Assembly (NCBI GenBank): GCA_963971285.1
Contig: OZ020250.1
Span: 10,524,499 to 10,588,498 of the forward strand
Length of the DNA stretch: 64,000 nucleotides
Reading direction: 5' to 3'
Origin: Astropecten irregularis
Lineage: Eukaryota > Echinodermata > Asteroidea > Paxillosida > Astropectinidae
A program made the position numbers and the translations under genes. Of this stretch, positions 889 through 42,126 are shown piece by piece. The notes below the pieces were generated by a model. The model was given only the letters and a program-made list of their open reading frames with translations. It was not told the origin of the DNA and did no database searches. Each line of letters begins with the position of its first letter. Within the stretch, counting starts at the first letter, position 1.

Positions 889-931
889 CTAGAGGTTGTG
901 TCTGTTGAAAACAGAACACAAGGCTTTTCCG
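889..931 (+). repeat. Left terminus of the element family
   Basis: It consists of CTAGA, then a hairpin (arms GTGTCTGTT and AACAGAACAC, loop GAA, one bulged A), then the subterminal inverted repeat GGCTTTTCCG, which is complementary to CGGAAAAGCC at the right ends. Near-identical termini start at 20043, 21414, 24730, 26149, 27326, 46702, 48034, 50751, 51934, 53280 and 56507, with a variant at 49469. All are preceded by A. Read on the minus strand this is a hairpin followed by CTAG then T, the arrangement of a classical Helitron 3' end. Confidence 0.8.
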
Positions 932-1187
932 TTTTATGTCTACTCTTGATATACTATTACTTGTTCATGTGTGTCACAAAGAAAGACAGTGCCTAACATT
1001 AACTTTTGGTGATAGAATCATGATCATAGTTCATTTAGTATAGAGGACAGAGGTCAATCAATGCATCATAAAAAGATCTTCCCTAACAATGACAGTTGCC
1101 AAAAGAATAAAGTTCATAGATGATTTTGGTTTGATTGTGAAATATTTTTGTTAATTGTGAGATGATGTCATCGAGATGTTATATTAA

Positions 1188-1613
1188 AGGTTCACTGTAA
1201 TAAAATGTGGGAAAGAGATGAAAGTGCTTTAAAATTATTGCTTAATACATAATTAATGAAAATATAAATTATATTTGTATGTAAGTGCTTCTTTTTGGCG
1301 AAACAATTACAAAATCGATATATGTATGCCCCGCCCCTCAAAAAAGTCCCTCTTGGAACCGACCCACGCAACAATAGCTTGTGACGTCACCTACAGAACT
1401 AGTATAGGCTCGCACCGCAGTATACTGTGTGGCGTTCTGCATGTGACGTAAGCAAGGTTTTTCGTCTCGGAAAGTGGGGTGCTCAATTATGGGTATAAAG
1501 TACCTCCTTTTTCTATATACAATATTTTTTAGCATAAACAAAGATAGACAGGTTGAGTTTTATAACAGTACAGATGTATTAAACTTCAGATGTGTTTTTA
1601 TTACAGTGAACCT
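1188..1613. mobile_element. MITE with 18-bp perfect TIRs and TTAA duplication
   Basis: The ends are perfect inverted repeats (AGGTTCACTGTAATAAAA and its complement at 1596-1613). TTAA occurs on both sides (1184-1187 and 1614-1617). Copies F and M have an uninterrupted sequence with a single TTAA at this point, so this is a clean insertion into copy A. A TA duplication would fit equally well. No ORF of note is inside. TTAA duplications suit piggyBac- or Kolobok-type mobilisation, but the superfamily is not established. Confidence 0.85.
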
Positions 1614-2070
1614 TTAATATTGGTTGCCGTTTTTGGATTTGTTGGAGAATTAAGGAAGCATGTAGGAATTTGTTCCATTTTGCAAAGATGTACGTTTTGG
1701 CTGAATTTGGTACTTAATCAGAAGTGAAGGTCTTGAACTTAGACTTTTTGTTTCATGTACATGTTCACGCTAATTTGTTCACTCAACTGGATAGCAGAAA
1801 TGCGGCAGAAATAGTCTTGCCCTCCAGTCCCGAATCCCTCACGGTGGTTACACCGCACATTTCGAAATGCTACTGAACGAAATTATTATAGCGCCCTCTC
1901 ACATAAATTGTCGATCACATGCGGTCGATCGCTTTTTTGCGTAGATACATTACAGTCATGTACATGTACATATAGTTAGTTTGTTTTTCTCATGATGATG
2001 TGTGACTGGAAACGAGTCTAAGACCTTTCTTTAGCATGCAACGTCACAGACCAAGTTTTTGCCAACCAGC

Positions 2071-2118
2071 ATGGCGGAAACTATGGCGAGCCGTCGAAAG
2101 CCACGCATAAAAAAATAA
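2071..2118 (+). other. Short leader ORF (uORF), copy A
   Basis: A 15-codon ORF (MAETMASRRKPRIKK) starts in the leader well before the giant ORF. Copies F (28042-28122) and M (57245-57325) retain the same start but encode 26 residues, because copy A differs by a short deletion in the A-run. It lies upstream of the likely splice donor, so it could be in the mature 5' leader and affect translation. There is no evidence for a functional peptide. Confidence 0.25.
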
Positions 2119-2363
2119 TCACAATTTTAAACACAACGTTTCATAAACATGGAAAGATATTGCTTTGCTAAATGTCATGGAAACAACACAAACAATGATG
2201 GTATGCATTTTGTATGCTATGGAAATTTGGTAAACATGTTGAATTTGGTCACGCCGTCTGTCAAGAAGATGAAATGATTTGCAACATTAGGCTGCCCATA
2301 CCACGTATTGCCAACCAGCGCGTCCGTCCGTGTAAAATGTAAACAAATAAAAGCAAGGTCTAT

Positions 2364-2523
2364 CGTCTGTGTGTAGGTGACCTGGTTTCCGCCTCATTGT
2401 AAGGGAAAATCTCGACTGAAGCTGCATGGAGCGGAAACCCGACTGTCTGTGTGTAGGTGACCTGGTTTCCGCCTCATTGTAAATGAAAATCTCGACTGAA
2501 GCTGCATGGATCGGAAACCAGAC
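2364..2523 (+). repeat. Two 80-bp tandem units in the leader
   Basis: Two 80-bp units each begin GTCTGTGTGTAGGTGACC and end near the putative splice donor. Copy F has the same duplication (28342-28501); copy M has only one unit (from about 57541). They precede the GTAAGT at 2540. Confidence 0.8.
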
Positions 2524-3252
2524 TGTCTGCAGCGATACCGTAAGTGAAGGTTTGAGGCGATTTATTACAAGCAGAAATGGGTTAAATTTCCTTGGTTAGG
2601 CATAGTTGTTTATGATTTAATGTCATTTTATGAAATTGTTGAATACTTAAGATTACAAATGTTATTGTTGTGTTAGGTATACTTGGTAAATTTATGACGT
2701 TTTTCATTGCTGGATCCGTGGACATGACGGATGGCTAGTTGACTCATGAATGCATGTGACGTACGTGCGCTATGCATGACCACGATGGCATTTTGTACAT
2801 CGTAGGCCTACCACGAACAGAATATAAAACCTTTTTACATTATTTAATGATTGTTTGGTATGTGAATTGTGAAAGAATATGCTCTGAAGAATAGTTATGA
2901 ATATGCTGAAATAGATAAAGTACTATTAAATATTTATTTGCATGATACACATTTCATCGAAATTCTTGGTCTAACGTTAGACTAGGCCTAGGGCCGGGGC
3001 TCTAGCCGCTAGGCCCTAATTTGAAATAGCGTTCCGCACTAATGACGTCACACCGTGCATGCACGCGCACACATACCTCCACTCACCACACGTTTGCATG
3101 GCCGGTTGCAATGTTTGTCTGAGGTTCGGTGCTATTTTTAGCTCAAGTGCGCAGCGCTATTGAAGAATTTGTTTGATTTGAGCTTGCTATGTTTATGCTT
3201 GCCCATTTTCCGGACAGTGGCTACACAAACCTTTGACTTAATCTAACTAAAG

Positions 3253-3568
3253 TGAAAGAATTCCACTGGTGGCCATTACGGAAAAAGGGTTATATCCTCG
3301 CTAATTCCATAGATTATATTAAACCATTAGTCATTATGTTAAAAAGATTATCCTCCAAGAGTTAACTTATTGGATACAAATTATTATGAATTTCAATCTC
3401 AGGTGTATACAGCTTTGGTAGCATGTCTGAAAAAGGAATATTACAGGTTTTAATTTTACCTACATTAATTAATACTCTTAATGCAGCGTGAGTGATTTTT
3501 TTGCAAAATGCCCTCTGTCGGTTCAATGGATTTATGCACAAGTGATGATCGTCAATTGAATTCTTCCC
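3253..3568. mobile_element. Old degraded MITE in the leader (family of 57934-58189)
   Basis: It starts GAAAGAATTCCACTGG and ends with a decayed complement (TTGAATTCTTCCC). Read on the other strand, the internal sequence around the AGAGTTAACTTATTGGAT motif matches the fresh MITE at 57934-58189. It is present in all three giant copies (29234-29548 and 58611-58925), so it was carried by their common ancestor. Confidence 0.6.
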
Positions 3569-4436
3569 TTATGTTTTTCCAATACATTAATTTAAAACAT
3601 GGAGAAATATATGTGTCTTATTTCTCCATGCTTAAACCAAGAAGAAGGAAATTTCCTTCCTCCATGCTTAAACAAGGTTTCTAAAAAAGAAAGACAATTA
3701 GATTAGGGCCTAAAGTAGTCAATTATTGTCATTTGCAAAAAAAGAAATGAAATGAAATAAAAATATTTAGTACATGAACTAGTTTGGGCAACTATTAATT
3801 ATCCACTTCTGTATCATACAGGATTTTTTTAAATAAAAAAATAACAATACCTCCAAAGCACTTTGTATGAAAATGGAAATGGTTGAATTTAAATAATTGA
3901 AAAACATGGTAAAACAAGAAGGGAAATAGAGACAAAATAATTTGGGCTAAAAGTTGTTTTCATTTAGTGATTTAAATCAAACAACCCTGTCTGTAAAGTT
4001 ATGTCTCTTGTGGGCTGGTATTGGTATCAGTAATGTTGTTGATTTTGTTTAGAACAGCTCTCTGCTCTTAATAAGAAATTTTGTTTTTTTGAGTACTTTA
4101 TTATCACTACAGTAGTTAGTAGGCCCTCAGCCTGAGGGCCTATTAGTACACATGTACGTGGGTCAGGCATGATTGTAGAGTAGAATTCTTTTTGAGGACC
4201 TATTTTAATTTCTGAATGTAAAAACAGACGGGTCCCAAGTTACACAATCGCTTATCTTTCACCCTATTGTATAGAAATTAAAATGGGACTCAATAAAACA
4301 GCTGCGCTATGTTAGGGTACACAATCCATTGATTCATAAAAGTATAAGGAACAAAAATTTGCTATTATTTCACATATTTGCTTTGAAAGGTACATGTAGA
4401 TTGCGGATAGTAGGCCCTATGTGTTATATCATTTTT

Positions 4437-4860
4437 AAAGGTATATGTAGTATCATACTTTGGTAAGAGACCATAACAGAAATGTAGTAGTAGAAACCTC
4501 CTGTTAAGATTTGTCCGCCTGAAATGGTGTATTTATCAAGAAATGAGTAAAACAATGACAAAAAAATCTTTTTGATCTTTTAAAAGATCAATAAAAGAGA
4601 AAAGACTTAAGAAATACTGTGGCCGTTTTTCACGATTTTCTCAAAAAGTGGGCACGGTATGGAATTGAAATTTTTACAGATGACTGTGAACACAGTCCCT
4701 AACTACGCAATCACAAAATGTACTTGCCTGCAATTTTAGCACACCACTGTTTGCAAGAAGTACAGATTCATGGGCAATAATATCAAGGAAGATTGCTTGA
4801 TATATTTTCCCATGAATCTGTACTTTTTTGACAAAAACCAAAGTATGATACTAACTTTGA
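4437..4860. mobile_element. MITE-like repeat just upstream of the coding start
   Basis: It is bounded by inverted repeats built around GTATCATACTTTGG and CCAAAGTATGATAC. It contains a 17-bp inverted repeat (4758-4774 with 4809-4825), able to form a strong hairpin. It is present in all three giant copies, with a diverged relative at 44758-45092 in copy F. It ends about 20 bases before the T-rich tract of the putative splice acceptor, so it may contribute branch-point sequence. Confidence 0.55.
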
Positions 4861-4913
4861 AGATGTTTTCTTGCTGGTGACAATTTTTTTTTATTTTCTT
4901 TTATTTTTTACAG

Positions 4914-7900
4914 ATGGCTCTGGACTGTATGAAGATGGCAGAGAGTATTTCATCTATCAAAAATCCTGGCATGTGCCAGGTACCTGGTGTATGCCAGGTA
5001 CCTGCGGTGTGCCAGGTACCTGTGATGTGCCAGGTTGATAACATGAAAAATCCTGGGGTGTGCCAGGTACCTGGGGTGTGCCAGGTTCAAAATCCTGGGG
5101 TGTGCCAGGTGCCTGGGGTGTGCCAGGTTCAAAATCCTGGGGTGTGCCAGGTGCCTGGGGTGTGCCAGGTTCAAAATCCTGGGGTGTGCCAGGTACCTGG
5201 GGTGTGCCAGGTTAATAACAAGAAAAATCCTGGGGTGTGCCAGGTACCTGGGGTGTGCCAGGTTAATAACAAGAAAAATCCTGGGGTGTGCCAGGTACCT
5301 GGGGTGTGCCAGGTTAATAACAAGAAAAATCCTGGGATGTGCCAGGTACCTGGGGTGTGCCAGGTTAATAATAACAAGAAAAATCCTGGGGTGTGCCAGG
5401 TACCTGGGGTGTGCCAGGTTATGAGAACAAGCGTAACAAAACCTGAGAACCAAATGAGAACAATAAAAAATGAACAAATCATGAGAAAAAATGAAGTTGA
5501 GAACATGATGATGACAAAAGACAGTGTTGTCTGTAAAATGCATGAAATGAAAACTGACATAATTGATTTGTGTGGAATCAGTTGTCAGACGTCAAGCTCC
5601 AGTAAAGCAAAAGTTATCAATGGAAATCATGTGATGAAATGCTATCTTTTACAGATTGTGAGACCTAAGAAATTGCAGTTGAAGAAACTACAGAAGGAAT
5701 ATGAGAGGAAGATACAACATGACAGACAAAACAAAGTGAGTAATCTGAGACAAGAAAGGAAGAAACGATTGTCACATTCTAGTAATTTGCACGGTGTGCA
5801 ATGGCTGAAGAAGTATGGTTGGACAAAGCATAGTGGTGGGGGATGTGTTTTGAATTGTGTTGAAGAGATATATGAACGAAAAGGAAGAAAGAGACCATCA
5901 CGACGGTACAAGAAGAAAGTGAGAAAACAGGTATTCAGGCAAACTCACAATATCAGGAAAGGAGGAATGGAAATAGAGAGTCGTATGACCAAGAAGGATA
6001 GAAAGGCATATAAAGATGAACAGACACAGATCTGGAAGCATACAAATGGAAGTATAAGTACAGTTTTGAAGAAGATGAAGTTCTTGAAAGACGAAGCAAA
6101 TGAAATGAGGAAGAGACAGAGGTGCATTCATAAGATGAGCAAACAGGTTTCTGATAAGAGGATAAAACAGATCAAAGAGCAAGATAAAAGTGGTAGCAAA
6201 TGTGCTGGGAAAGTGGATACTGAAGACAGAAATGGTAATGCTAATGTAGATGGACAGTGTTGGATTTGTGATGAGATGATCAAGCCATGGGACTTCAAAT
6301 TACAGTGTGATTGTGGGTTATGGTATCATGTTGATTGTATGGGAGTTACAAGTTGTATTGGAAATCATGTCTTGCTAAACAAGTCAATTGTATGGATATG
6401 TTGCAAATGTCGAGGGAGTAACTACTGTAAATATTTATATGACTGTTCTGATATTTCTGCAGATTTCACTGTATTTGATGTGATGTTGACTAGTTTTGAA
6501 GAGGGTGTTGATGAACAAACGGAAGAGAATTTTGACAGTCAGGCAATGAACAGAAATGTTGAAGGTATATATGCATGTGGTAACAAAAAAGAAACAGTAC
6601 CAGAGCAATCAGGAGGATATACATTGAGGAATAGAAAGAAATCAGAATCTAATAAAGGCAAACAAGATGCTGAGGGTGTATCTTTGACGGATGGTAATGA
6701 GAAATCTAATGATAGTAAAACTTGCAGAAGTCATGGAAAATCAAAACAATGTTCAAAGAGTGATCAGGGTGAATCATGTACAGTGAAGCAAAATACCAAG
6801 TATGCTCTGAGAAGTAGAAAGAACTCAGTGTCACCCCATAGTAATAAGAATGGAGATGAGAAGATGCCAAAGGTCACAAGTAATGACAGTATGAATAGAC
6901 AATGTTCAAGGAGTGATCAGGGTGAATCATGTAGAGTGAAGCAAAATACTAAGTATGCTCTGAGAAGTAGAAAGAGATCAGTGTCACCCCATAGTAACAA
7001 GAATGGAGATGAGAAGATGCTAAAGGTCACAGGTAATGACAGTTTTAATAGCACCAAACATATTAAGATACAGCAGGACATAAAGAAGCCCCAAAACATG
7101 CAAAGTGATTCATATGAAGACAGTGGAAATAGTGAAGTTGTAAGTGCATCAGGTAACATGATTGTACAGGGTAGTTTCCATCAAGGTGATTTTAGATTTG
7201 GAAATAATACTGGTAAACAGTGTGTTGCTAATAGTCTGTGTGCTATAATGTATAGCAGAATTAAGAAGTTAGATAAATGGTGCTCTAATGAAATGGACTT
7301 TGTCTTGAATACTGGAAATGAATTGTATGGTTTTTTATCACATAGTTCTACAGTAGAGAATGAGTATTTGTTGATCAGTGAGTTGCCAGAGGAAATAGAT
7401 GTTTTCAGTCAGCATTTCTGTGTTCAATTCCATGAAGCTGTGTCTGGTACCTTTGAAGAAAATACAAATCTGTCAGATTTCAATATGATTTCATTGAATC
7501 ATGCTCTGCAGCAGACACTTCACAAGTATACAGCATGTTTTATCTGTTTCCATATGAACACATTTTCAGTCATTGCTCAGGATGGATTGTATTATATTTT
7601 TGATTCCCATTCTAGAAATCATAATGGCAGACAAGACTGTAACGGCAGAAGTCTTCTGAAACGTGTAGCTTCATGGCAAGGTGTTTACAGTTATTGTATT
7701 GAACTTGGAAATTCTATGAATGTGTCTGAATCCGAGCAGTTTGAAATTACAGGAGTCAGTGTTGAGATTAAAAATGAGCAGAATATTTGTAATCATGAAC
7801 CTACAGGCAATAATGAAAGTGTTTGCACCGAGTGTAATGTTAAAGATGTAGCATCTGAATGTTTACTTGAGATATCAAAATCAAATGAAGTGCAGGGAAA

Positions 7901-10900
7901 TGTTGATGCACATGTCATAAGCAGTTGCAAGAGTGGTGATGATGTAGAAATAGTGCAAGTTATAGAACCTGCCAAATTAAGATTTATGTTACTAAGTAAT
8001 GATAGTAAAACCCAATTGTGTCAGAAATTTGGATTGAGAAGGGTATCTCTAGATGTTGATGAGAATGCTAGAAGATGTGATAACATGGGAAGTCCCAACA
8101 GAATAAAAAGGATCAAAGGTGATGGAAACTGTTTCTTCAGAGCTATTTCTTGTGCTATATCTGGAACTGAAGAAAATCATATGCATGTTAGAACAATAGT
8201 TATAAATCACTTGTTGAATAATGCTGGTAAATTTAACTGTTTTTTAAGAGAAGGTTTTTCTACAATGGAAGATTATGTGGTTAGGCAGAGGCTGTTTCAT
8301 AGTGGTACATGGGCAACAGAAGTAGAAATCATAGCAATGGCTGACATGTTGGGTGTAGATATATATACATATAGTGATGCAAGTAGGTGGTATGTGTTTT
8401 CACGTTCATTCACCAATACTGACAGATTATCAGATTGTGGAATTTATTTGTATCATAGAAATGAAGTTCATTATGATTTAGTCATGAATGTTCATGAACT
8501 TGTTCCAAGTAGTCATGCTGACAGTAATGAAAACTACTGTAACAGAGATTTGATGTCTGAAAGTACCTGTACTAGAGACCCAGTCAGTAATGTTGATGTA
8601 AGTCAATGTGATGATAGAAAGGAAGATAAGACAAAGCATTCTCAGGTAAAGCGAAAGAGGCGTACTCGTGTAAATGTGGCATTAAAACGAAAATTAGCCA
8701 GAGAGAAAGCAAAAGAAAGATACAATAAAAGAAATGTAAAAGTTGTAGAAAAGACTAGTACATACAAGGAAAGACAGAATTATGCAAAAAGACAGAAATA
8801 TGCTGATTTTACGGATTTCAGAAAGAATGTTCTTGAATATGAGAAGAAAAAATATGCAGAAAATTGTGAAAAGAAGAAGGAATTGTTAAAGTTAAAATAT
8901 CAACAGAATGCTTTTTATAAGGATATTAAAATAAAAAAATCAATGAAGAAGTATCATGAGGATTGTATACACAGACAAAGAAAGATCAATAGTGAGAAAA
9001 GGAAGTACCACTCAGAGGATAGTATACACAGACAAAGAAAGGTCAATAGTGAGAAAAGAAGGTATCTTGAGGATAGTATACACAGACAAAGAAAGGTCAA
9101 TAGTGAGAAAAGGAAGTACCACTCAGAGGATAGTATACACAGACAAAGAAAGGTCAATAGTGAGAAAAGAAGGTACCATGAGGATAATGACTTTAGAGAA
9201 GAAAAGATTAATAGAATTAAAGCCAGAATTAAAGCCAAATATAATGTGGACGCTGCATATAGACAGAAAACAATTAACCGTGTAAAGAAAATGTATCATA
9301 GTAATCAAGTATACAGAAATGCTGTCATTAACTCTATAAAGAAAAAGTATTGGAGTAATCATGTGTACAGAGTGAATTTGATAAAAAATCTGAAATATAA
9401 GTATCGCCAAGATGCAAATTATCGTAAGAAAATAAAACAGAGGAATATAAGACAAAAAAAGAAAAGAAATCAACATGCACGGAAAATAAGGAATGTTATC
9501 ACAAATTGGAAAAAAGAAGTATCATCAGGACCTGAGTATGTTTGTGCAGTTTGTTGTAAACTTTTGTTTAAAAAACAAGTTATTAAATGTAATAAAGATA
9601 AATACAGGTTTATCAGTTGTATATCTGAGAAATATTTACATACATGTATATGTACAAAAGAGTGTGGAAATGAATGTCTTGTATCAAAATCTAGCAGGTC
9701 AAGATTATGGATATGTTACACATGTCATAGAAAGTTACTCCAGAAGAAGGTACCAGCAGAAGCATGTACAAATAATCTAGAAGTGATAGACATTCCACAG
9801 GAATTGGATTGTTTGAATATATTAGAGGAACATCTCATAGGAATTAATGTACCTTTCATGAAGCTCATAGCGTTACCCAAGGGAAAGCAAAATGCAGTTC
9901 ACGGACCAGTTGTATGTGTTCCATCTAATATTACAGACACAGTGACAGCATTGCCGAGATGCAGAAATGAAAATCAATTAATTAGAATCAAGCTGAAGAG
10001 AAAATTATCTTACAAAGGATATTATCAATATCAATTTGTGACTAGGGAACATGTGGAAAATGCATTAAGATATCTTAAGGAAAATAATGTATGGTACAAA
10101 GATATTGAAATCAATTGTGATTGGAATGATCCCCTGTTAGATGAGGAACATGATGAGGAACATGAAGATGAAGTGATACATGCTAGTGATGATTCCAGTG
10201 TAAGTGATGAAGAAACAGATGAAGATCGTTTGTGTGGTATTCCACTTGATACATGTCTACAGCCTATAGATATTGGACAAGAAGTGCTTGATCAATATTT
10301 TGATGATGTACTTTGTGTTGCACCTTGTGAAGGAAATAATCCAGTTAGAGTATTAATGGAGGAAGGTAATGAGGCCAAATGTTTTCCAGCATTATTTCCA
10401 GTAGGCTCACCTATATTTGATGATAAACGTGATGGAAAGCTGACACGCTTGAGATATTTTCATAATAGGTTGATGAATGCAGATAACAGATTTGCCAAAT
10501 GTACTCAATATATCTTTTATGCCCAGTATTTATCAGAAATTGAAAAGGTGATGTCTGGTGTATCAATTGCTATGCGTCAAAGTTCAGGGAAAATGCATTA
10601 TGGTAAAAGTGTGAATTCTAGCATGATAAAGGATAGAGATCAATTGAATGATATTTTACAGTCAGATAGTGGGTATAGATTTTTGAAACCAATTAGAGGT
10701 ACACCGTCATATTGGCAATCAACTCAGAGAGATGTCATGGCTATGATTAGACAACTTGGAATACCAACATGGTTTTGCTCATTTTCTGCAGCTGATATGA
10801 GATGGCCTGAAGTTATTAATACAATATTGAGACAACAAGGGGATTTCAGAACAATTGAAGATTTGGATTGGAATGATAAATGTACAGTATTGAGAAGCAA

Positions 10901-13900
10901 TCCAGTGACTGTGGCAAGAATGTTTGACAATCGATTTCACACATTTTTGAAAGATGTTATCATGTCAAGTGCAGCACCCATTGGGAAAGTGAAGGACTAT
11001 TTTTACCGAGTAGAATTTCAACAAAGAGGATCTCCACACACACATTGTCTGTTTTGGATTGAGAATGCTCCATATTTGGAAAAAGATGATGATGCTGACG
11101 TAATAAAATTTATTGATTCATATATCAGTTGCAAGTTACCAACACAGGAAGAAGATGAGGAATTGAATGAAATAATCAGTCATGTGCAGCAACATAGTAG
11201 GAAACATACCAAGTCTTGTAAGAAGAAGGGTTCTGAATGTAGATTTAATTTTCCCAGACCACCATCTAATAGAACATTTATTGCCAGTCGTGATCCAGCT
11301 GATGATTGTAATGATAAAGATAGTGAGGATGATGAATATAATCATGAAGAAAGTACTTCCATTAGTAATGATGAAAAGAAACATACAGCAGCCAAGGAAT
11401 TATTGCAATCAGTATGGAATGCAATCAAGGATGAGAATAATCAACACATGTCCACATCTGAATTATTTCAAAGCATTAATATTACACAGTCTGATTTTGA
11501 AAAGGCTAATGATGTTTTGAGCAGGAAACCTACTATTGTTTTAAAGAGAGAGCCTCAACATGTATGGGTGAATCTGTATAATCCTGATTTAATTAGAGCC
11601 TGGAATGCTAATATGGATATTCAATATATCACTGATGCATATGCCTGTGCAGCATACGTTGTATCATACATGTCAAAGTCAGAACGAGAATTGGGAAATC
11701 TGTTAGCAAATGCACAGAATGAGGCGAAAAAGGGCAATTTAGATGCTAGACAGAGTATGAAGGAAATTGGATGCGTGTATTTACACAATAGAGAATTATC
11801 AGCTCAGGAAGCAGTGTTTCGCGTTTGTGGTCTCAGGTTGAAAGAAGGTTCTAGAAAAGTGGAGTTTATACCTGTTGGTGAAAATCCTGTACGTATGAGT
11901 TTGCCATTGACTGTAATTCAGAATAAATGTGAAGATGATGATGATATTTTCATGACTAGTAGAGTTGATCGTTATAAAGCAAGGCCAGATGTTGATGAAT
12001 TTAATGACATGTGTCTGGCTACATTTTGTTCAAAGTACAGAATTATTTATAATGCAGGTACATGTAATATATCAAGAAAGTCACCAGTGTATGCATTGAA
12101 ACATGGTCTGGGCCACATACAGAAACGTAGAAGAACTGAACCAGCAGTCATAAGATATCCAAGGTTTTCAGTGACTAAATATCCTGAGAAATATTACCAC
12201 AGTATATTACAACTGTTTCTTCCATATCGTGTTGATGCTCAACTGAAGCCATCACAGTTTGATAATTATGAACAATTTTATAGGAATGGTTCTGTTAGTG
12301 TAAATGACCAGATTGAATCTGTAAGTGTTGTTGTTGAAAGTAATCGGTCTAGATATGAGAAGAATGCTGAGGCTCTTGAAGCAGCTAAACAATATGTAGA
12401 AAAACATGGTATGCAGGAAGATGCTTGGGCTATGATCTCCCCAATATCTGAGCAAGAAAGACTTGAATGCGAAGCTGAACGTGAGCTAGTATTACCAGAA
12501 GATGATGATTTGGATATTCCTGACCTACAATCTGACAAAAAAGACAAAGTGTGTAATATTGAACCACATTCAGTGAAAATATCAAAGCAAGATGCACTAA
12601 GTTTACTGAGGTCATTGAATGCACAACAAAGGGAAGTGTTTAATAAGATTCGAGACTGGTGTTTACAGAAGGTACAAGGCAAAAACCCTGAACCATTTCA
12701 TGTGTTTATCACTGGTGGAGCTGGAACTGGGAAAAGTCATTTGGTTAAATCAATACATTATGAAGCAACAAGACTGTTTACAAGAATGGTTCAGAATCCT
12801 GATAATGTGTCTGTAATGATAACTGCACCTACTGGAGTTGCCGCTTTTAATATCAATGGAAGTACAATTCACAGTGCATTGTCAATTCCCACTGATGCAC
12901 GTTTGCCATATCAACCTCTAGGTGAGGAGAAATTGAATACTTTGAGGAATGAATTGCAAGATCTTCAGATTGTTATTATTGATGAAATATCAATGGTTGA
13001 TCATAAAATGTTGTGTTACATTCATGGACGGCTGCGACAGATTAAGCAAACACGTGATCTCAAGCCATTTGGAAAAGTGAGCATTTTAGCTGTTGGTGAT
13101 TTTTATCAACTACCCCCAGTCAAGGGAAAATCATTGTATCATATGGACATGGCACTAGATCTGTGGAATGATTGTTTTAAGAAAGTAGAGTTGAGGGAGA
13201 TTATGAGACAAAAGGATGATATGCAGTTTGCTGAAACTTTGAATAGAATACGTGTCAGAGCTAAGCAGGATAAGTTATTGGATGAAGATGTGGCAATGTT
13301 ACAATCACGAGAAACTGGAGAAGATTGGGATGATGCTTTACATATATTTCCATGTAATAAACAGGTTGATGAATACAATCAGAAGATACTGTTTGCAAAG
13401 TGCAGTGATTATTTCTGTATTTTAGCAAATGACTTTCAGAAAGATTTCCATAAAAAGACAAGCCTAAAGAAAATACCCAAGAAATCAATGCATACAACTT
13501 TGCCTGAATCATTATGGCTTGGTACTGGTGCTAGAGTAATGCTGTGTAAAAATATTGATGTTTCTGATGGTCTTGTTAATGGAGTACTTGGAACTGTTTG
13601 TGAAATCATTCTGTCACATGATGAATCTACCCCTGAATACATACATATTATATTTGATAGTAAAAGTGTAGGATCCAAAGTGAAAAGGAAAAGTGCAACA
13701 AATGATGGATTTGTTAGAATTCAGAGGGAAGAAGAATATATAAGCAAACAGTGGATAAGACGACAATTTCCATTGAAATTAGCATGGGCCTGTACAGTAC
13801 ATAAAGTACAAGGAGTGACTACAGACAGAGCAGTGGTATGTCTTGAACGTACATTTTCTGCAGGTCAAGCATATGTAGCACTTAGCAGAGTAACATCTCT

Positions 13901-14687
13901 AAATGGACTTGTGGTTGAAGGGTTTAATGAAAAGTTTGTTTATTGCAATAAATCAGTCAAGGATTCATTGAGTAATATGATGGAATTTATTGAAGAATCT
14001 AATGTAAGAACACTATCATCAAATGGTGCTGTAATCATGATGCATAATATCCAAGGATTGAAAGAACACTTTAAAGACCTAGAATGTAATAATGATATGA
14101 TGACATCAGATTTCATTTGTCTGACGGAAACATGGAATGAGAATGCTTTTGATTGTGAGACAGAATTAAGTGAATTTAAATGCTACCACCAGGTCAGAAG
14201 CGCTTCATATGACAATTCATGCAGTGTTACTCAGATGTTAAGTAAACAGTGTCATGGAGGTGTTGCTGTGTATGGTAGAAGGAACAAGACATTCAGTAGA
14301 CTGATGTTACCTGTACACAACTTGGAGTATATTGCAATACAAGTAATTTGTGAAGTGTCATATTCTGTGGTGACAATTTATCGTCCTGCATCATATTCCA
14401 TGATTGAGTTTATTACCAACATGAAACATTTACTTGATGAACTTCATAAAGTATCTAACAGATGTATTGTAATGGGTGATTTTAATGAAGATATTTTGAA
14501 ACAACATCCGCAAATTGAGAAATTAATGTGTGAGCATGGATATAAACAATGTGTGACAGATGCAACAACAGAGAATGGGACATTGATTGATCATGTATAT
14601 GTGAGAAATATAGAATCAGTATGTGCAAGTGTAATTCCTACTTATTACAGTTATCATGAAGGTGTGTGTATCAATATCAATATGTGA
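4914..14687 (+). CDS. Giant Helentron Rep/helicase polyprotein with PHD, C76-like, OTU and endonuclease domains (copy A)
   Basis: This is an intact 3257-residue ORF. Residues 17-170 hold about 20 CQV repeats. C449 to C499 form a C4HC3 PHD finger. C770 with D897-x-H899 (FDSHS) resembles C76-type ubiquitin peptidases. D1070-GN-C1073 with H1186 is an OTU catalytic set. Lys/Arg/Tyr-rich repeats follow at about 1240-1530, then a Cys-rich DUF6570-like region (about 1541-1740). The Helitron N/Rep region has HTH at 2042-2044 (the HUH motif) and Y2248/Y2252. The Pif1-type helicase has Walker A GGAGTGKS at 2601-2608 and Walker B DE at 2690-2691. The C-terminal AP-endonuclease-like domain has HNIQ at 3044, TETW at 3071 and GDFNED at 3188. 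Rep nicks and rejoins single strands in rolling-circle transposition and the helicase unwinds. The endonuclease is typical of Helentrons. The ATG was chosen because homology starts there, directly after a splice-acceptor-like ACAG. Every catalytic motif looks intact, so activity is plausible. Confidence 0.9.
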   Translation: MALDCMKMAESISSIKNPGMCQVPGVCQVPAVCQVPVMCQVDNMKNPGVCQVPGVCQVQNPGVCQVPGVCQVQNPGVCQVPGVCQVQNPGVCQVPGVCQVNNKKNPGVCQVPGVCQVNNKKNPGVCQVPGVCQVNNKKNPGMCQVPGVCQVNNNKKNPGVCQVPGVCQVMRTSVTKPENQMRTIKNEQIMRKNEVENMMMTKDSVVCKMHEMKTDIIDLCGISCQTSSSSKAKVINGNHVMKCYLLQIVRPKKLQLKKLQKEYERKIQHDRQNKVSNLRQERKKRLSHSSNLHGVQWLKKYGWTKHSGGGCVLNCVEEIYERKGRKRPSRRYKKKVRKQVFRQTHNIRKGGMEIESRMTKKDRKAYKDEQTQIWKHTNGSISTVLKKMKFLKDEANEMRKRQRCIHKMSKQVSDKRIKQIKEQDKSGSKCAGKVDTEDRNGNANVDGQCWICDEMIKPWDFKLQCDCGLWYHVDCMGVTSCIGNHVLLNKSIVWICCKCRGSNYCKYLYDCSDISADFTVFDVMLTSFEEGVDEQTEENFDSQAMNRNVEGIYACGNKKETVPEQSGGYTLRNRKKSESNKGKQDAEGVSLTDGNEKSNDSKTCRSHGKSKQCSKSDQGESCTVKQNTKYALRSRKNSVSPHSNKNGDEKMPKVTSNDSMNRQCSRSDQGESCRVKQNTKYALRSRKRSVSPHSNKNGDEKMLKVTGNDSFNSTKHIKIQQDIKKPQNMQSDSYEDSGNSEVVSASGNMIVQGSFHQGDFRFGNNTGKQCVANSLCAIMYSRIKKLDKWCSNEMDFVLNTGNELYGFLSHSSTVENEYLLISELPEEIDVFSQHFCVQFHEAVSGTFEENTNLSDFNMISLNHALQQTLHKYTACFICFHMNTFSVIAQDGLYYIFDSHSRNHNGRQDCNGRSLLKRVASWQGVYSYCIELGNSMNVSESEQFEITGVSVEIKNEQNICNHEPTGNNESVCTECNVKDVASECLLEISKSNEVQGNVDAHVISSCKSGDDVEIVQVIEPAKLRFMLLSNDSKTQLCQKFGLRRVSLDVDENARRCDNMGSPNRIKRIKGDGNCFFRAISCAISGTEENHMHVRTIVINHLLNNAGKFNCFLREGFSTMEDYVVRQRLFHSGTWATEVEIIAMADMLGVDIYTYSDASRWYVFSRSFTNTDRLSDCGIYLYHRNEVHYDLVMNVHELVPSSHADSNENYCNRDLMSESTCTRDPVSNVDVSQCDDRKEDKTKHSQVKRKRRTRVNVALKRKLAREKAKERYNKRNVKVVEKTSTYKERQNYAKRQKYADFTDFRKNVLEYEKKKYAENCEKKKELLKLKYQQNAFYKDIKIKKSMKKYHEDCIHRQRKINSEKRKYHSEDSIHRQRKVNSEKRRYLEDSIHRQRKVNSEKRKYHSEDSIHRQRKVNSEKRRYHEDNDFREEKINRIKARIKAKYNVDAAYRQKTINRVKKMYHSNQVYRNAVINSIKKKYWSNHVYRVNLIKNLKYKYRQDANYRKKIKQRNIRQKKKRNQHARKIRNVITNWKKEVSSGPEYVCAVCCKLLFKKQVIKCNKDKYRFISCISEKYLHTCICTKECGNECLVSKSSRSRLWICYTCHRKLLQKKVPAEACTNNLEVIDIPQELDCLNILEEHLIGINVPFMKLIALPKGKQNAVHGPVVCVPSNITDTVTALPRCRNENQLIRIKLKRKLSYKGYYQYQFVTREHVENALRYLKENNVWYKDIEINCDWNDPLLDEEHDEEHEDEVIHASDDSSVSDEETDEDRLCGIPLDTCLQPIDIGQEVLDQYFDDVLCVAPCEGNNPVRVLMEEGNEAKCFPALFPVGSPIFDDKRDGKLTRLRYFHNRLMNADNRFAKCTQYIFYAQYLSEIEKVMSGVSIAMRQSSGKMHYGKSVNSSMIKDRDQLNDILQSDSGYRFLKPIRGTPSYWQSTQRDVMAMIRQLGIPTWFCSFSAADMRWPEVINTILRQQGDFRTIEDLDWNDKCTVLRSNPVTVARMFDNRFHTFLKDVIMSSAAPIGKVKDYFYRVEFQQRGSPHTHCLFWIENAPYLEKDDDADVIKFIDSYISCKLPTQEEDEELNEIISHVQQHSRKHTKSCKKKGSECRFNFPRPPSNRTFIASRDPADDCNDKDSEDDEYNHEESTSISNDEKKHTAAKELLQSVWNAIKDENNQHMSTSELFQSINITQSDFEKANDVLSRKPTIVLKREPQHVWVNLYNPDLIRAWNANMDIQYITDAYACAAYVVSYMSKSERELGNLLANAQNEAKKGNLDARQSMKEIGCVYLHNRELSAQEAVFRVCGLRLKEGSRKVEFIPVGENPVRMSLPLTVIQNKCEDDDDIFMTSRVDRYKARPDVDEFNDMCLATFCSKYRIIYNAGTCNISRKSPVYALKHGLGHIQKRRRTEPAVIRYPRFSVTKYPEKYYHSILQLFLPYRVDAQLKPSQFDNYEQFYRNGSVSVNDQIESVSVVVESNRSRYEKNAEALEAAKQYVEKHGMQEDAWAMISPISEQERLECEAERELVLPEDDDLDIPDLQSDKKDKVCNIEPHSVKISKQDALSLLRSLNAQQREVFNKIRDWCLQKVQGKNPEPFHVFITGGAGTGKSHLVKSIHYEATRLFTRMVQNPDNVSVMITAPTGVAAFNINGSTIHSALSIPTDARLPYQPLGEEKLNTLRNELQDLQIVIIDEISMVDHKMLCYIHGRLRQIKQTRDLKPFGKVSILAVGDFYQLPPVKGKSLYHMDMALDLWNDCFKKVELREIMRQKDDMQFAETLNRIRVRAKQDKLLDEDVAMLQSRETGEDWDDALHIFPCNKQVDEYNQKILFAKCSDYFCILANDFQKDFHKKTSLKKIPKKSMHTTLPESLWLGTGARVMLCKNIDVSDGLVNGVLGTVCEIILSHDESTPEYIHIIFDSKSVGSKVKRKSATNDGFVRIQREEEYISKQWIRRQFPLKLAWACTVHKVQGVTTDRAVVCLERTFSAGQAYVALSRVTSLNGLVVEGFNEKFVYCNKSVKDSLSNMMEFIEESNVRTLSSNGAVIMMHNIQGLKEHFKDLECNNDMMTSDFICLTETWNENAFDCETELSEFKCYHQVRSASYDNSCSVTQMLSKQCHGGVAVYGRRNKTFSRLMLPVHNLEYIAIQVICEVSYSVVTIYRPASYSMIEFITNMKHLLDELHKVSNRCIVMGDFNEDILKQHPQIEKLMCEHGYKQCVTDATTENGTLIDHVYVRNIESVCASVIPTYYSYHEGVCININM
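4965..5419 (+). repeat. CQV tandem repeat inside the giant ORF, copy A
   Basis: The unit reads AATCCTGGGGTGTGCCAGG, paired through the 12-bp palindrome CCAGGTACCTGG, and encodes NPGVCQVPGVCQV. There are 20 CQV half-units here. Copies F (30927-31468) and M (60317-60858) carry 87 bp (29 residues) more. Most of the array is free of stops in several frames on both strands, a consequence of its composition. Regular Cys spacing (C-x5-C) hints at metal binding or disulfides, but this is inference. Confidence 0.85.
6747..7052 (+). repeat. 51-residue in-frame tandem duplication in the giant ORF
   Basis: Two 153-bp units encode the same 51 residues, with the core motif KYALRSRK followed by SVSPHSNKNGDEKM. 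A related YTLRNRK motif occurs upstream near residue 570. The basic Y-x-LR-x-RK motif between the PHD finger and the peptidase could be a nuclear-localisation or chromatin-contact element. No family was recognised. Confidence 0.7.
8945..9185 (+). repeat. Lys/Arg-rich coding tandem repeat, expanded in copy A
   Basis: Units of about 19-20 codons encode DSIHRQRKVNSEKR with a YH or YL linker, and five are seen in copy A. Copy F has fewer and more diverged units (34980-35115). The region is strongly basic and probably coiled or disordered. It could bind nucleic acid. The expansion stays in frame. Confidence 0.75.
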
Positions 14688-15803
14688 TGTTTTCTGTGTA
14701 AATGAATTTACTTGAAATATTATTTAAAGATGAAAATGGAATATACATGGCGTGATTGACTTTTATCATAAGACTTATTTAATGTCAAGAGATATGCATT
14801 GAACATCTAATTGAAAGAATACATAGTAAGGAAATACATTATAGTAAGGTGTTTATAAAATTATCAATATGTGATGTTTTATACACAAATTGCTATATTA
14901 TGTCAATGAATTGGTATTAAAAGATGAACGTATTTAGAGATTTAGAGATACAAGGAATCGAAATCGAACATGGAATTGAAAGAAGTTACAGTATATAATA
15001 ATGTGTTTGTATCACTATGATATGCATTTTGCAGAGGTTGTCATACATGTTAATGAATTAAATCAAAGTAGCAATATAAAGTGCATGTACATGTATATTT
15101 ACAGCTTGCGTTGTCTCTTAAAAGAGGTTTCAATACTGATAGGTTGGACACAGTTTAGCATCAATAATGGTTATTTGAAAGAATGAAGGTTTATTTTGAT
15201 ATACTTCACAGATGTATGTCAAACCATGCACGATCATCAGATGGTCATCACAATGAGCCTCAGCAGAGCCATCAAACCATGCATGGCCGCTGCCGGGCCA
15301 TGTGAAAACATGGCAACTACTCACCAGATGGTCATCTAGTCATCGGAATACACGGTGACTGACACACTCAGCAGGGTGATGTCAACCCATGACTACTCTC
15401 AATTGCATGGTCATCTATCTTGGCTGTGGCAGATACTCTTACAGAGGACATAATAATGTCAGGTATGTTGGCTGTTGATGGTTTGTGTTTTGTAAGAATA
15501 GGGCCTCTCTGTTGACCTTTATTGAAATAATAAATGTAACAAAATTGTTTTACCCTTTGAGAAAGAATCTGCTAGGATCGAAATCAGCCAGGCCCTCCCT
15601 ACTCCAATCATTTAATATATTTCAGGTCATCTTGGATGATGAGCAGTTTGCTGCAGTTAATTACTTGTATTAATATTACAAAAGAATTGCTGTAAAACAG
15701 TTGAAAACAAATGTCATTTACTAAATGTATTTTTTCCCTCAAATGTCTGCTTGTTAATACATCAATACCAATATTCTCTTCATTAACTGTGATTACTCAC
15801 CAG
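14688..15803 (+). other. 3' untranslated region of copy A up to the minisatellite
   Basis: Homologous to 40605-42120 in copy F with many small indels, so it belongs to the element. It holds short CATGGCC-rich motifs (about 15220-15310) that are expanded to a tandem array in F (41123-41280), and an AATAAA at about 15526 that could serve for polyadenylation. No coding region was recognised. Confidence 0.6.
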
Positions 15804-17240
15804 GACATGTCAACACATGAGCATTCTTCACTGCATGGTCAACATGTCATCAGGGTAGTGACTGATACACTCAGCAGGGACATGTCAACACATGACCATT
15901 CTTCACTGCGTGGTCAATTTGTCATCAGGATACTGACTGATACACTCAGCAGGGACATGTCAACACATAACCATTCTTCACTGCATGGTCAACATGTGAT
16001 CAGGGTAGTGACTGATACACTCAGCAGGGGCATGTCAACACATAACCATTCTTCACTGCATGGTCAACATGTGATCACGATTGTGACTGATACACTCAGC
16101 AGGGGCATGTCAACACATGACCATTCTCCACTGCATGGTCAACATGTCATCAGGATAGTGACTGATACACTCAGCAGGGACATGTCAACACATGACCATT
16201 CTCCACTGCATGGTCAACATGTGATCAGGATAGTGACTGATACACTCAGCAGGGGCATGTCAACACATGACCATTCTTCACTGCATGGTCAACATGTCAT
16301 CAGGGTAGTGACTGATACACTCAGCAGGGACATGTCAACACATGACCATTCTCCACTGCATGGTCAACATGTCATCAGGGTAGTGACTGATACACTCAGC
16401 AGGGGCATGTCAACACATGACCATTCTTCACTGTGCGGTCAATATGTGATCAGGATAGTGACTGATACACTCAGCAGTGTCTTATCAACACATGACCATT
16501 CTCCACTGCATGGTCAACATGCCATCAGGGTAGTGACTGATACACTCAGCAAGGACATGTCAACACATGACCATTCTCCACTGCATGGTCAACATGTCAT
16601 CACGGTAGTGACTGATACACTCAGCAGGGACATGTCAACACATGACCATTCTTCACTGCATGGTCAACATGTGATCAGGATAGTGACTGATACACTCAGC
16701 AGGGACATGTCAACACATGACCATTCTTCACTCTGTGGTCAACATGTCATCAGGATAGTGACTGATACACTCAGCAGGGACATGTCAACACATAACCATT
16801 CTTCACTGCATGGTCAACATGTGATCAGGATAGTGACTGATACACTCAGCAGGGACATGTCAACACATGACCATTCTTCACTGCGTGGTCAACATGTGAT
16901 CAGGATAGTGACTGATACACTCAGCAGGGGCATGTCAACACATGACCATTCTTCACTGCATGGTCAACATGTGATCAGGATAGTGACTGATACACTCAGC
17001 AGGGGCATGTCAACACATGACCATTCTTCACTGCATGGTCAACATGTGATCAGGATAGTGACTGATACACTCAGCATTGTCATGTCAACACATGACCATT
17101 CTTCACTGTGCGGTCAATTTTGATCAGGATATTGACTGATACATTCAGCAGGGACATGTCAACCCATAACCATTCTCCACTACGCTGTCAAATTTTGATC
17201 AGGATAGTGACTGATACACTAAGCAGGATATGTCAAACCA
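15804..17240 (+). repeat. 75-bp minisatellite in the 3' region, copy A
   Basis: Seventeen full 75-bp units run 15804-17078, followed by decayed units to about 17240. The unit includes GACATGTCAACACATGACC and GTGACTGATACACTCAGCAG. Because 75 is divisible by three and the unit has no stop in one frame, an ORF of 470 codons (15711-17123) results, repeating a 25-residue peptide (DMSTHDHSSLHGQHVI, then VVTDTLSR). In copy F the same frame is broken repeatedly, so translation is doubtful. Tandem repeats near the ends are common in Helentron-group elements. Confidence 0.85.
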
Positions 17241-18740
17241 TGGCGAATTTGTAGTCATGTTTGAAAGCCATAATTATTCTTGAAAGCAAAATGTATTCTT
17301 AAAGGTACATTACATGATTGGTAAAGGTCACATGACAGCACTCATACTTTGTCTGATCAAACAGGTACATGAACCTGATGAAAATAATAAACCTGTGAAA
17401 ATTTGACCTCAATTGGACATCTGAGTCTGAGAATAGCGATAACACGATAAATTGTTCTCATAAAACATGAAGAATGGTTTTGTTCTTACCCCGAGATCAA
17501 AAGTGTTTTTGATTTTCGTTTTACTAATTTCTTGATAAGTACAGTATTTCAGGTTGAAATATTTTATATGTATGTTTCTACCAGCACCATATTCATAACT
17601 TGAGTGAAAGGGGATAACTAAGACAACTCATATGTGTGTGTCCTTTATGTTTGTTCCAAAAATCGTTCGGACGAACAATCTTTGGAAAAAACACTAATAT
17701 AGATTTCCTTGAACACTTAATATTGATTTCTTTGAAAAACCCAGCATCTGATGAACCATGGAGGTAGAAATTTCTACCTCCATGGATGAACCAAGATTTC
17801 TGGACAAATACAGTATTTCAGGTTGAAATATTTTATATGTATGTTTCTACCAGCACCATCTTCATACCTTGAGTGAAAGGGGATAACTAAGACAACTCAT
17901 ATGTGTGTGTCCTTTATGTTTGTTCCAAAAATCGTTTGGACGAACGATCTTTGGAAAAAACACTAATATAGATTTCCTTGAACACTAAATATTGATTTCT
18001 TTGAAAAACCCAGCATCTGATGAACCATGGAGGTAGAAATTGAACCAAGATTTCCCATGGTGACTGTTTGCACTGTGCATTTTCTGTCTCAAACTCAATT
18101 ATTTGTTTTGGAGGCCTTGCAAATCCTACATTGAATATGCTCCCTTTAAATGTACCACTATGATTCTTGTGTAAAGTACTCAAGTGTCACAAATATCATC
18201 CGTCTAAAATTTTAAGAAGAAAGCTAGCTTACAAATGAATTTAATTCAATGTGAGTTCCTGTGTTCTGCAATTTACACTTTTTTATGCAGTTCTTCCCAG
18301 CCAAAATAACTTATATTCTTGGTGATTGTGATAATTGAAAGTGGTAATATAGTCTGAGTTTTGCAATAAAACAAAAAAGTCATTTACAAAAAAATGAAAA
18401 GAGTATACATTTCTTGTATGTTTTGGGGTTTCGTCCTGATCAGAATAATATTAGTCCTGTGCTTATAATATGATGCAAACCAAAAAGAAATAAGGTGCTG
18501 TGTATCCAAAATGGTCGTTGTTGATTTTCTGCATTTTGCGATCAGATGATGAATCATATTTTGGAACAGAATATTTAATTGTCCCCGCCTTTCATAATTA
18601 TAACAACTCATCATGACATAAACTATATAAATACAGCTTTGGCAGTATATGCATTCCACAAGTAATGCATGTGTATTATAACGTATGCATGGTCACATGA
18701 GGGCGCACTTTACAATTCGTACGTTCTCACAACATACAAC
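17241..18740 (+). other. Element A 3' region with a 269-bp tandem duplication
   Basis: A 269-bp unit is duplicated (17541-17809 and from 17810 to about 18046). At the end of the first unit is a perfect 30-bp palindrome (17756-17785; half-site CCATGGAGGTAGAAA), which the second unit lacks. From about 18160 to 18740 the sequence matches copy F 44690-45756. No gene was seen. Confidence 0.6.
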
Positions 18741-19260
18741 TGTTGAAAAACCTCTATTTCACCAACCTTCCAATTTTCTTAGTGAAATCATTTTGCGAAT
18801 ACAAAATTGTTTCTAAAACACGATGGCATGAAACATATTTGCTTCCATGTTCTGAAGTCTGAACTTCAGTCTTCATTAAGATGCCCACAAAGTCTATAGG
18901 ACGTGACTTAAATTTGTTCATATTTATAGGACGTGACTTAAATTTGTTCATATTTAAAACGTCAAATTGCCACGTGCAAAAAGACTATGGATATTCCCAA
19001 GTATTAAGTTGCATAAAATGACGTACGTACAATACTCCGCAAGCTACATCGATAGCATTCCTATTATGATGGTGGTGCTGATATTTAATATAAAAAAAAT
19101 TTCCGTCTTCCCAGATTTCAATAAAAGATGATTGGCGGTGTACACCACAGCAGATTCGTTTTAATAAAAAAGATCAAGGGCTCCCGACCACTCAAAACCG
19201 TGTGCTCGATTCATGCATTAGCCTACTTCAAAGTGCATAATTATGGTATAGGTAGATGTT

Positions 19261-19342
19261 ACGCATGCGTACTTGTCTTGTCAAAACAGTATTTACGATG
19301 GCAACTATGATAAGGGAATGAAGGAGAATACGGCATATATAA
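19261..19342 (+). promoter_or_regulatory. Possible core promoter: ACGCATGCGT plus TATATAA
   Basis: The palindrome ACGCATGCGT, resembling an NRF-1 site, lies 66 bases before TATATAA. The same pair at the same spacing occurs at 25364-25445 and 48682-48763. TATATAA without the clean palindrome recurs at 22325 and 52729. Conservation may simply reflect shared ancestry of the modules. Promoter activity is inferred only. Confidence 0.3.
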
Positions 19343-19576
19343 CACAGGCAGTCAACCAAGTGCCCGCGCCTTGCATTAAATGACCAATATTTTTACGTAC
19401 AAGTCACGTCAATGGGCTAGCGTGAAAAATATTTTTAAAAATCATAAAAAATAAACAAATGACGCTGTCTTGACGTAACTTCATAATTACGATCCCGAAC
19501 CTCCATTTTACTAACCTACCAATTTTCAAGGCGATCGGCCGTTCCTGATCATGCGTTATAAAAATCGCATTTTTTA

Positions 19577-19762
19577 TGACGTCATGATGACGTCACCAAA
19601 TTTTTGTCTATGCAGTGTTCATCTATGATGTATGCTGAAGAATTATCAAAAAGAAATTCAAAGATATCTTGTTTCGTTTACTAGATATCGTTAAAAGAAC
19701 TTTAATGACCCAAAATTTCAATAAATCATTAAAAAACAGGGAATGACGTCATGATGACGTCA
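19577..19762. promoter_or_regulatory. Paired CRE palindromes (TGACGTCA)
   Basis: TGACGTCA occurs in pairs 11 bases apart (TGACGTCATGATGACGTCA) at 19577 and 19744, with a weaker set near 19890. The same two or three pairs recur in nearly every short element, for example near 20738, 24128, 25843, 26846, 48996, 51450, 55275 and 56189. The octamer is the CREB/ATF consensus. Whether it is bound, or is only structurally required by the element, cannot be told. Confidence 0.5.
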
Positions 19763-20042
19763 TTGCAATTTTTCGATATAACACTTCCCGACTTACATAC
19801 ATACCAAGTTTCAACTCAATGAGACTAAGGGTTCGTTCATAAATGATGTCTGAAGTTTGCCCCTTTAAGACACTGTCACGTGACACCTGATGACGTCATG
19901 ATGACGTAAATGTTGCGCATACAACTACCCTACAGGGACTTTGTTTTGACCAAGTTTGGTCAAAATCGGCACTTTAAAAGTAGCCAAAGTGCCACCTAGA
20001 AAAAACGACGACAAGAAGAAGAAGAAGAAGAAGAAAGTAAAA

Positions 20043-21227
20043 CTAGAAATTGTGTCTGTTGAAAACAGAACACAAGGCTTTTCCGCTTTATAGAAAAATC
20101 AAAATAACCTTATACACACAAAGACATTTGATTAAGATCTTAAGTTTTATACTTTTTAAGTATGCACCTTTAATCATACACTCACGTGACTTGGTCATAT
20201 TTCTATCACAAAGAAAGACCTTGCCTAACATTGACTTTTGGCGAAAGAATCATGATCATAGCCCTTATAACTTTTAAATCAGAAGCTACTTCCTGTTTGA
20301 CCGGAAGTAGAGGTCGTAGAGGTCAAGCAATTTATCACAAATGAAAGACCTTGCCTAACATTGTCTATTGGTGAAAGAATCATGATCATACCTCTTACCA
20401 CTTTTAAATAAGGAGCTACTTCCTGTTTGACCGGTTGTAGAGGTCACAGAGGTCAAGCAATGTGTCACAATGAAAGACCTTGCCTAACATTGACTTTTGG
20501 TGAAAGAATCATGATCACATCTCTCACCACTTTTAAACGAGGAGCTACTTCCTGTTTGCCCTGTACAAGTCAATGGGCTATAGCGTGAAAAATATTTTTA
20601 AAAATCATAAAAAAATAAAAAAAGGCGCAGTCTTGACGTAACTTCAGAATTACAATCCCGAACCTCCAATCCACCAATGTACCAATTTTCAAGGCGATCG
20701 GCCGTCCCTACTATGTGTTATAAAAATCGCAATTTTTATGACGTCATGATGACGTCACCGAATTTTTGTCTATGCAGTGTTCATCTATGGTGTATGCTGA
20801 AGAATTATCAAAAAGAAATTCAAAGATATCTTGTTTCGTTTACAAGAAATCGTTAAAAGAACTTTAATGACCCAAAATTTCAATAAATCATAAAAAATCA
20901 AGGAATGACGTCATGATGACGTCATTGCAATTTTCCGATATAACACTTCCCAACTTAGATACATACCAAGTTTCAACTCAATCAGTCTTAGGGTTCGTTC
21001 ATAATTGATGTCTGAAGTTTGCCCCTTTAAGACACTGTCACGTGACACCTGATGACGTCATGATGACGTAAATGTTGCGCATACAACTACCCTACAGGGA
21101 CTTTGTTTTGACCAAGTTTGGTCAAAATCGGCACTTTAAAAGTAGCCAAAGTGCCACCTAGAAAAAACGACGACAAGAAGAAGAAGAAGAAGAAGAAAGT
21201 AAAAAAAAAATCAGAACAAAAATAATA
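20043..21227 (+). mobile_element. Short non-autonomous element B
   Basis: Left terminus CTAGAAATTGTG at 20043. It contains three roughly 130-bp units with ETS-like and DR3-like motifs (20200-20560; perfect DR3 at 20441-20455), CRE pairs, and an AAG-repeat tail at about 21175-21200. There is no coding capacity. Its ends match those of the giant element, so it is probably mobilised by that element's Rep/helicase. Confidence 0.75.
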
Positions 21228-21408
21228 CCTTTTCCGTTGAACACGGAAAAGCCAAAAAAAATCAGAACAAAAACAATACCTTTTCCGTTGAACACGGAAA
21301 AGCCAAAAAAAATCAGAACAAAAATAATACCTTTTCCGTTGAACACGGAAAAGCCAAAAAAAAAATCAGAACAAAAACAATACCTTTTCCATTGAACATG
21401 GAAAAGCC
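21228..21408 (+). repeat. Four stacked right-end hairpins
   Basis: Four roughly 51-bp units end in hairpins at 21228-21253, 21279-21304, 21330-21355 and 21383-21408 (arms CTTTTCCGT and ACGGAAAAG, loop TGAAC). Each is preceded by an A-run and ATCAGAACAAAAA. The fourth has a compensated base pair (CCAT with ATGG). They are best read as right ends of successively nested elements. Confidence 0.75.
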
Positions 21409-21413
21409 AAAAA

Positions 21414-42120: not shown

Positions 42121-42126
42121 ACTCAG

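Follow-up and report, generated by a model that had tools for sequence, protein, structure and literature searches.

Rep-helicase-endonuclease proteins, subterminal palindromic repeats and, in some elements, an OTU protease have been described for Helentrons and HINEs by Thomas et al. (2014, PMC4067079), who also discuss tandem repeats in some of the non-autonomous partners and clustering. These features recur in the element described here, which lies in a 64,000-nucleotide stretch of the genome of the starfish Astropecten irregularis (assembly GCA_963971285.1, contig OZ020250.1, positions 10,524,499-10,588,498 of the forward strand, hereafter the window; the assembly consists of 168 contigs with a total of 475.7 Mb). 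The starfish protein differs in that it additionally carries a PHD finger and a C76-like cysteine protease of the VTD type; neither 'tegument' nor 'PHD' occurs in the accessible text of Thomas et al.

VTD proteases of transposons have been described by Erven et al. (2022, PMC9741609), who count 121 Helitrons with both VTD and OTU and demonstrate cleavage of K48- and K63-linked ubiquitin by VTDs of zebrafish Helitrons. In their view, VTDs may protect proteins required for transposition from degradation. Zebrafish DrT1 and DrT2 (PDB 8add), the latter of which also has an OTU domain, share the VTD profile, fold and catalytic columns with the starfish protein, but the accessible text mentions neither a PHD finger nor an exchange of the front part. 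The herpesvirus large tegument deubiquitinase (M48, PDB 2j7q) is a viral tegument protein without a Rep-helicase, and its profile match is weak (E 0.099). Ginger1-9_HM of Hydra (PMC2836005) has a transposase with a PHD finger and a ubiquitin-like protease, but that transposase is non-rolling-circle and Gypsy-integrase-like, and the protease is Ulp1 instead of VTD and OTU. The Cg_HINE elements of the Pacific oyster (PMC7492417) are, by their description, non-autonomous Helentron relatives with satellite-like tandem repeats, the autonomous partner being left unresolved in that paper.

An earlier note on this DNA had proposed that the combination of a C76-like peptidase, OTU and a chromatin-reader finger might be undescribed. 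The first two components together are published (PMC9741609), so that the PHD addition is left as possibly new: among the matches listed for open PubMed Central text, no paper describes PHD, VTD and OTU in one Helentron. Nothing in such matches concerned front-module exchange between Helentron copies either, which is thin evidence of novelty. The VTD-OTU layout is already known in other animals, and the PHD addition and the front-part exchange appear to be the less expected parts. A Rep-profile scan of viral_contigs found no relative, and the comparison of architectures refers to the A. irregularis genome.

Domain architecture and its conservation

The open reading frame (ORF) of the first of three large units in the window spans 3,257 codons without an internal stop, exactly at the coordinates given in the earlier note (Table 1). 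The domain order claimed there (PHD, C76-like peptidase, OTU, HUH with Y-x3-Y, Pif1, AP-endonuclease) is confirmed by Pfam and by aligned key residues. In the full unit 1 protein, matches above the respective cut-off are found for Herpes_teg_N (41.1 bits at residues 754-904, cut-off 25), OTU (40.4 bits at residues 1068-1183, cut-off 23.3), DUF6570, Helitron_like_N, PIF1 and Exo_endo_phos (31.2 bits at residues 3045-3233, cut-off 24.5).

The key residues were compared in 21 copies, namely units 1-3 (U1, U2 and U3) and 18 of 20 further loci with long frames; L014 and L018, with shorter frames, were left out, and L001-L010 are not included, L001-L008 being 3.6-kb pieces and L009 and L010 the two halves of one additional copy. 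Invariant in 21 of 21 copies, some of which are near-identical to one another so that the counts are not 21 independent tests, are VTD Q757, C770, D897 and H899, OTU D1070, C1073 and H1186, all eight zinc ligands of the PHD finger, HUH H2042 and H2044, the two-tyrosine pair Y2248 and Y2252, and the Walker A K2607 of the Pif1 helicase.

The VTD matches PDB 8add (zebrafish Helitron VTD) in both profile and fold, C770, D897 and H899 line up with the catalytic columns of 8add and M48, and Josephin and YopT-like chains rank far below the top two in the fold list. The region proposed as C76-like (740-920) thus has a cysteine peptidase fold, and the DGNC/His set of the OTU domain is likewise borne out by Pfam and the invariant Asp, Cys and His. 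By analogy with the characterized enzymes, both domains are predicted deubiquitinases.

The PHD finger is not reported by the Pfam scan of the full-length unit 1 protein, and the sub-region scores 13.8 bits, under the cut-off of 24. However, the C4HC3 pattern seen in the earlier note holds up through its invariant ligands and through profile matches: Pfam PHD is matched at E<=1 by 15 of the 21 copies (best 1.3e-6), and a profile built from all 21 detects PHD chains of Pygopus (E 5.3e-6). The finger resembles H3K4me readers in profile and fold and is predicted to bind the histone H3 tail. Between PHD and VTD, the motif Y-x-L-R-[NS]-R occurs three times (6618-6635, 6801-6818 and 6954-6971), and a Cys-rich stretch lies immediately ahead of DUF6570 and at its start.

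A two-tyrosine HUH Rep, a fused Pif1 helicase, a C-terminal AP/EEP endonuclease and a 5' subterminal palindrome, four of the features that mark Helentrons, are found here, and unit 1 is very probably an autonomous animal Helentron whose ORF encodes the Rep-helicase-endonuclease protein. One reservation concerns the endonuclease. The last motif in the EEP superfamily is S-D-H; at window positions 14652-14657, S-Y-H is found in all 11 aligned rows that extend that far. Comparison of this region with PDB sequences gave a sole, unrelated-looking match (E 0.6).

A genome search with the HUH region of the unit 1 copy yielded at least 113 copies, a lower bound because 113 of 175 candidates were scored. 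In 87 of these the match is stop-free and lies in a frame that stays open for at least 3,000 codons, and 40 belong to 12 same-strand runs (gaps under 60 kb). Many of the listed copies whose open frames are short are located on contig C1, at about 6-13 Mb. Domains were assigned to copies by matching position and strand with separate searches for PHD (129 of 134 rows), VTD (136 of 150) and OTU (145 of 151), the omitted rows being mainly short or weak. All three domains are present in 105 of the 113 copies, and VTD with OTU in 112; one fragment lacks all three, and PHD went undetected in 7 of 39 core-II copies, possibly misses of a query that represented form A alone.

Relationship between the front part and the replication core

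The copies appear to combine a common, young Rep-helicase core with one of several front parts (N-terminal region, PHD and VTD) that are old and divergent, the two having been joined by recombination at more than one place. The 17 other core-I copies in the comparison are 90-96% identical to U1 in the HUH region, and their VTD identity to U1 is bimodal, 92-99% (8 copies) or 54-57% (9 copies), with PHD identities of 85-95% or 39-57%. The contrast appears in synonymous divergence (dS), so that the mosaic does not result from protein selection alone. Between U1 and L024, dS is 1.00 in PHD, 1.77 in VTD, 0.21 in OTU, 0.13 in HUH and 0.14 in the endonuclease, compared with 0.03, 0.00, 0.02, 0.13 and 0.18, respectively, between U1 and U2. 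The U1/U2 divergence begins about residue 1200, and third-position profiles change at about residues 480-800, 880-1120 or 1200, depending on the pair.

The domains themselves are under purifying selection. The nonsynonymous to synonymous ratios, from pooled counts over eight non-overlapping pairs that are not fully independent in descent, are 0.45 for PHD, 0.35 for VTD, 0.34 for OTU, 0.20 for HUH, 0.20 for PIF1 and 0.34 for the endonuclease, and the N-terminal repeat region, at 0.94, is near neutral. Ratios in the front part are 0.56-0.94 once PHD and VTD are set aside, and residues 511-740 reach 0.97, 1.13 and 1.28 in three pairs, as would be expected if the front part merely evolved faster, under relaxed constraint or positive selection and without recombination. 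We consider this explanation hardly credible because the synonymous contrast between VTD and HUH runs both ways in the two U1 pairs, and because the data misfit a single tree over all segments with even synonymous rates. Furthermore, in form D (L016/L020), dS is similar in VTD (0.09) and HUH (0.08), so that the VTD is no synonymous hot spot there.

A stronger alternative is that gene conversion homogenised the Rep-helicase core among old lineages, the front being too divergent to convert, which would produce a similar mosaic without any transfer of cassettes. Arrays favour conversion, and the HUH dS between U1 and five other core-I copies is low (0.13-0.20) whether the front is the same or different. 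What conversion of the core does not readily account for is the U1/U2 break near residue 1200 and the mixed front parts of L024 and L019, which together point to exchange at more than a single core-front boundary. In L024 and L019, the VTD has 91-93% identity with form B and 54-55% with form A, and the PHD is a form of its own, with identities of 54-57% to A and 39-41% to B; between L024 and L013, dS is 1.70 in PHD and 0.10 in VTD. We give conversion a substantial chance, although one short of even.

The trees support the recombination of front parts in part. The VTD tree separates forms A, B+C and D with good support, whereas the core tree sets only D apart and mixes A, B and C. With groups defined after the identities had been seen, B (p 0.0074), A+C (0.0098), C (0.027) and U1+U2 (0.036) are rejected for the core by the approximately unbiased (AU) test, whereas A (0.099) and B+C (0.104) are not; A+C is not rejected on VTD (0.087), nor B+C on PHD (0.122). 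Among the 74 core-I copies genome-wide, the VTD is of form A in 36, of another form in 37 and not found in 1, and form A lies beside another form in 8 of the 12 same-strand runs. This recurrence of the same front forms at separate loci speaks against artefactual assembly joins as the likely source of the mosaic.

The array of autonomous and non-autonomous elements

The window contains 12 copies of one type of 5' terminus (CTAGA, a hairpin and GGCTTTTCC), all on the + strand, with the hairpin and GGCTTTTCC present in 12 of 12. They delimit a head-to-tail array in which two elements (19.2 and 19.4 kb) have their ORF complete, a third begins in the window, and nine are non-autonomous (1.2-3.3 kb), several of these with tandem repeats of ~130 bp. 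The ORF of unit 3 amounts to 3,315 codons once extended into the following 10 kb of the contig (L012). Hairpins are found within the last 45 nt ahead of 21414, 48034, 50751 and 56507, and none ahead of 20043 and 46702, where the two complete autonomous units presumably end, so that their lengths are upper bounds. The array and the shared terminus fit the published Helentrons and HINEs (PMC4067079).

Table 1. Coordinates of features in the window
Feature	Position	Strand	Basis
Helentron unit 1, 5' terminus to next 5' terminus, 19,154 bp (upper bound; no independent 3' end)	889..20042	+	12 like 5' termini
5' terminus: CTAGA, hairpin, GGCTTTTCCG	889..931	+	terminus comparison and genome search
Pyrimidine-rich tract ending ACAG, abutting ATG; likely 3' splice site	4870..4913	+	present in all three units
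ORF, PHD-VTD-OTU-DUF6570-Rep-Pif1-endonuclease	4914..14687	+	frame translation and Pfam
N-terminal tandem repeats (NPGVCQVPGVCQV)	5001..5421	+	repeat listing and translation
C4HC3 PHD finger, residues 449-499	6258..6410	+	invariant ligands, profile and fold matches
VTD (Herpes_teg_N, C76-like), residues 741-920; Q757, C770, D897, H899	7134..7673	+	Pfam, profile, fold, alignment
OTU region, residues 1046-1200; D1070, C1073, H1186	8049..8513	+	Pfam and alignment
Approximate break, units 1 and 2 shift from ~1% to ~14% different	8511..8574	+	pairwise comparison
DUF6570, residues 1611-1736	9744..10121	+	Pfam
Helitron_like_N with HUH motif, residues 1849-2046	10458..11051	+	Pfam and alignment
Y-x3-Y, Y2248 and Y2252	11655..11669	+	alignment; lined up with Helraiser (7lcc) by a second, weak match
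Pif1-type helicase, Pfam match at residues 2568-2771 (2B part 2865-2897)	12615..13226	+	Pfam
EEP (AP-endonuclease-like) domain, residues 3045-3233	14046..14612	+	Pfam
75-bp tandem repeat array 3' of ORF	15795..17236	+	repeat listing
Four non-autonomous elements, head to tail: 20043-21413, 21414-24729, 24730-26148, 26149-27325	20043..27325	+	5' termini
Helentron unit 2, up to 19,376 bp; ORF from ATG 30876 to 40604	27326..46701	+	ORF and 5' termini
Five non-autonomous elements, head to tail, starts 46702, 48034, 50751, 51934, 53280	46702..56506	+	5' termini
Helentron unit 3, cut off by window end; ORF from 60266	56507..64000	+	ORF and 5' terminus

The autonomous units start at 889, 27326 and 56507; starts at 1614, 27611 and 56805, considered previously, were wrong, the search with the presumed 3' end having matched upstream of other copies. 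An exon upstream of the ORF is likely because in each of the three units a pyrimidine-rich tract and ACAG lead up to the ATG. Unit 1 carries extra sequence (1188-1613) that splits parts of the 5' region adjacent in units 2 and 3. Some 295 bp of this region (about 2046-2340, 28017-28316 and 57220-57519) show zero base differences among the three units save a 5-base gap in unit 1. A known domain in this conserved stretch was discounted, the Cys-containing frame being only 42 amino acids long with no Pfam match. A 470-amino-acid open frame at 15711-17123 was also dropped as a gene: it looks fortuitous, lies over the 75-bp repeats, and its lone Pfam match is below the cut-off. The six-frame stretches of at least 90 codons in 17300-27600 and 44000-56800 reach at most 154 codons, with repeats among them.

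Long open frames under purifying selection and the concentration of copies in same-strand runs are also what a domesticated host gene family would display. Such a nature of the array is very improbable, given that the copies are spread over many contigs, that non-autonomous elements with the same terminus lie between the genes, and that the first 36 bases of this terminus have 1,360 genome matches with up to 3 mismatches (0 for the reversed control). Near-identical copies are also present on contigs C14 and C20. Unit 3 and L023, on another contig, differ by 0.0-0.7% across ten segments, a sign of recent movement or transfer.

Possible functions and implications

Judging from the respective families, Rep would nick and join the ends of the element, Pif1 would unwind the DNA, and the endonuclease would aid in cutting. 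Less certainly, the PHD finger may dock the complex on histone H3 tails, and the VTD may strip ubiquitin from the transposase, or from host factors present at donor or target sites, which would spare the transposition complex from the proteasome, with OTU as a possible second deubiquitinase. By analogy with the zebrafish enzymes, protection of transposition proteins from degradation is most likely the role of the VTD.

Alternatively, both cysteine proteases could cut the element's own polyprotein rather than act on host ubiquitin. The polyprotein is indeed very long, and cleavage between Rep, helicase and endonuclease has been proposed for Helentron OTU proteases (PMC4067079), but all three VTDs of zebrafish Helitrons that were assayed reacted with ubiquitin, and two of them also with NEDD8 (PMC9741609), and the VTD fold here matches those enzymes, so that self-processing seems improbable.

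Different forms lying side by side in arrays would offer an easy route for the exchange of front parts. It is possible, though we would not count on it, that exchangeable front cassettes on a shared replication core keep old, divergent host-interaction modules in circulation and thereby allow the element to escape host silencing or protein-turnover defences, as in modular viruses.

These copies bear on the question of why transposons carry deubiquitinases. With at least 113 of them, several divergent PHD-VTD forms on one core and proteases under purifying selection, A. irregularis provides natural replicates for tests of domain function. The same copies could show whether host defence drives the diversity, and they offer a concrete case of modular exchange within a transposase gene, if the apparent recombination of front and core is what it seems.
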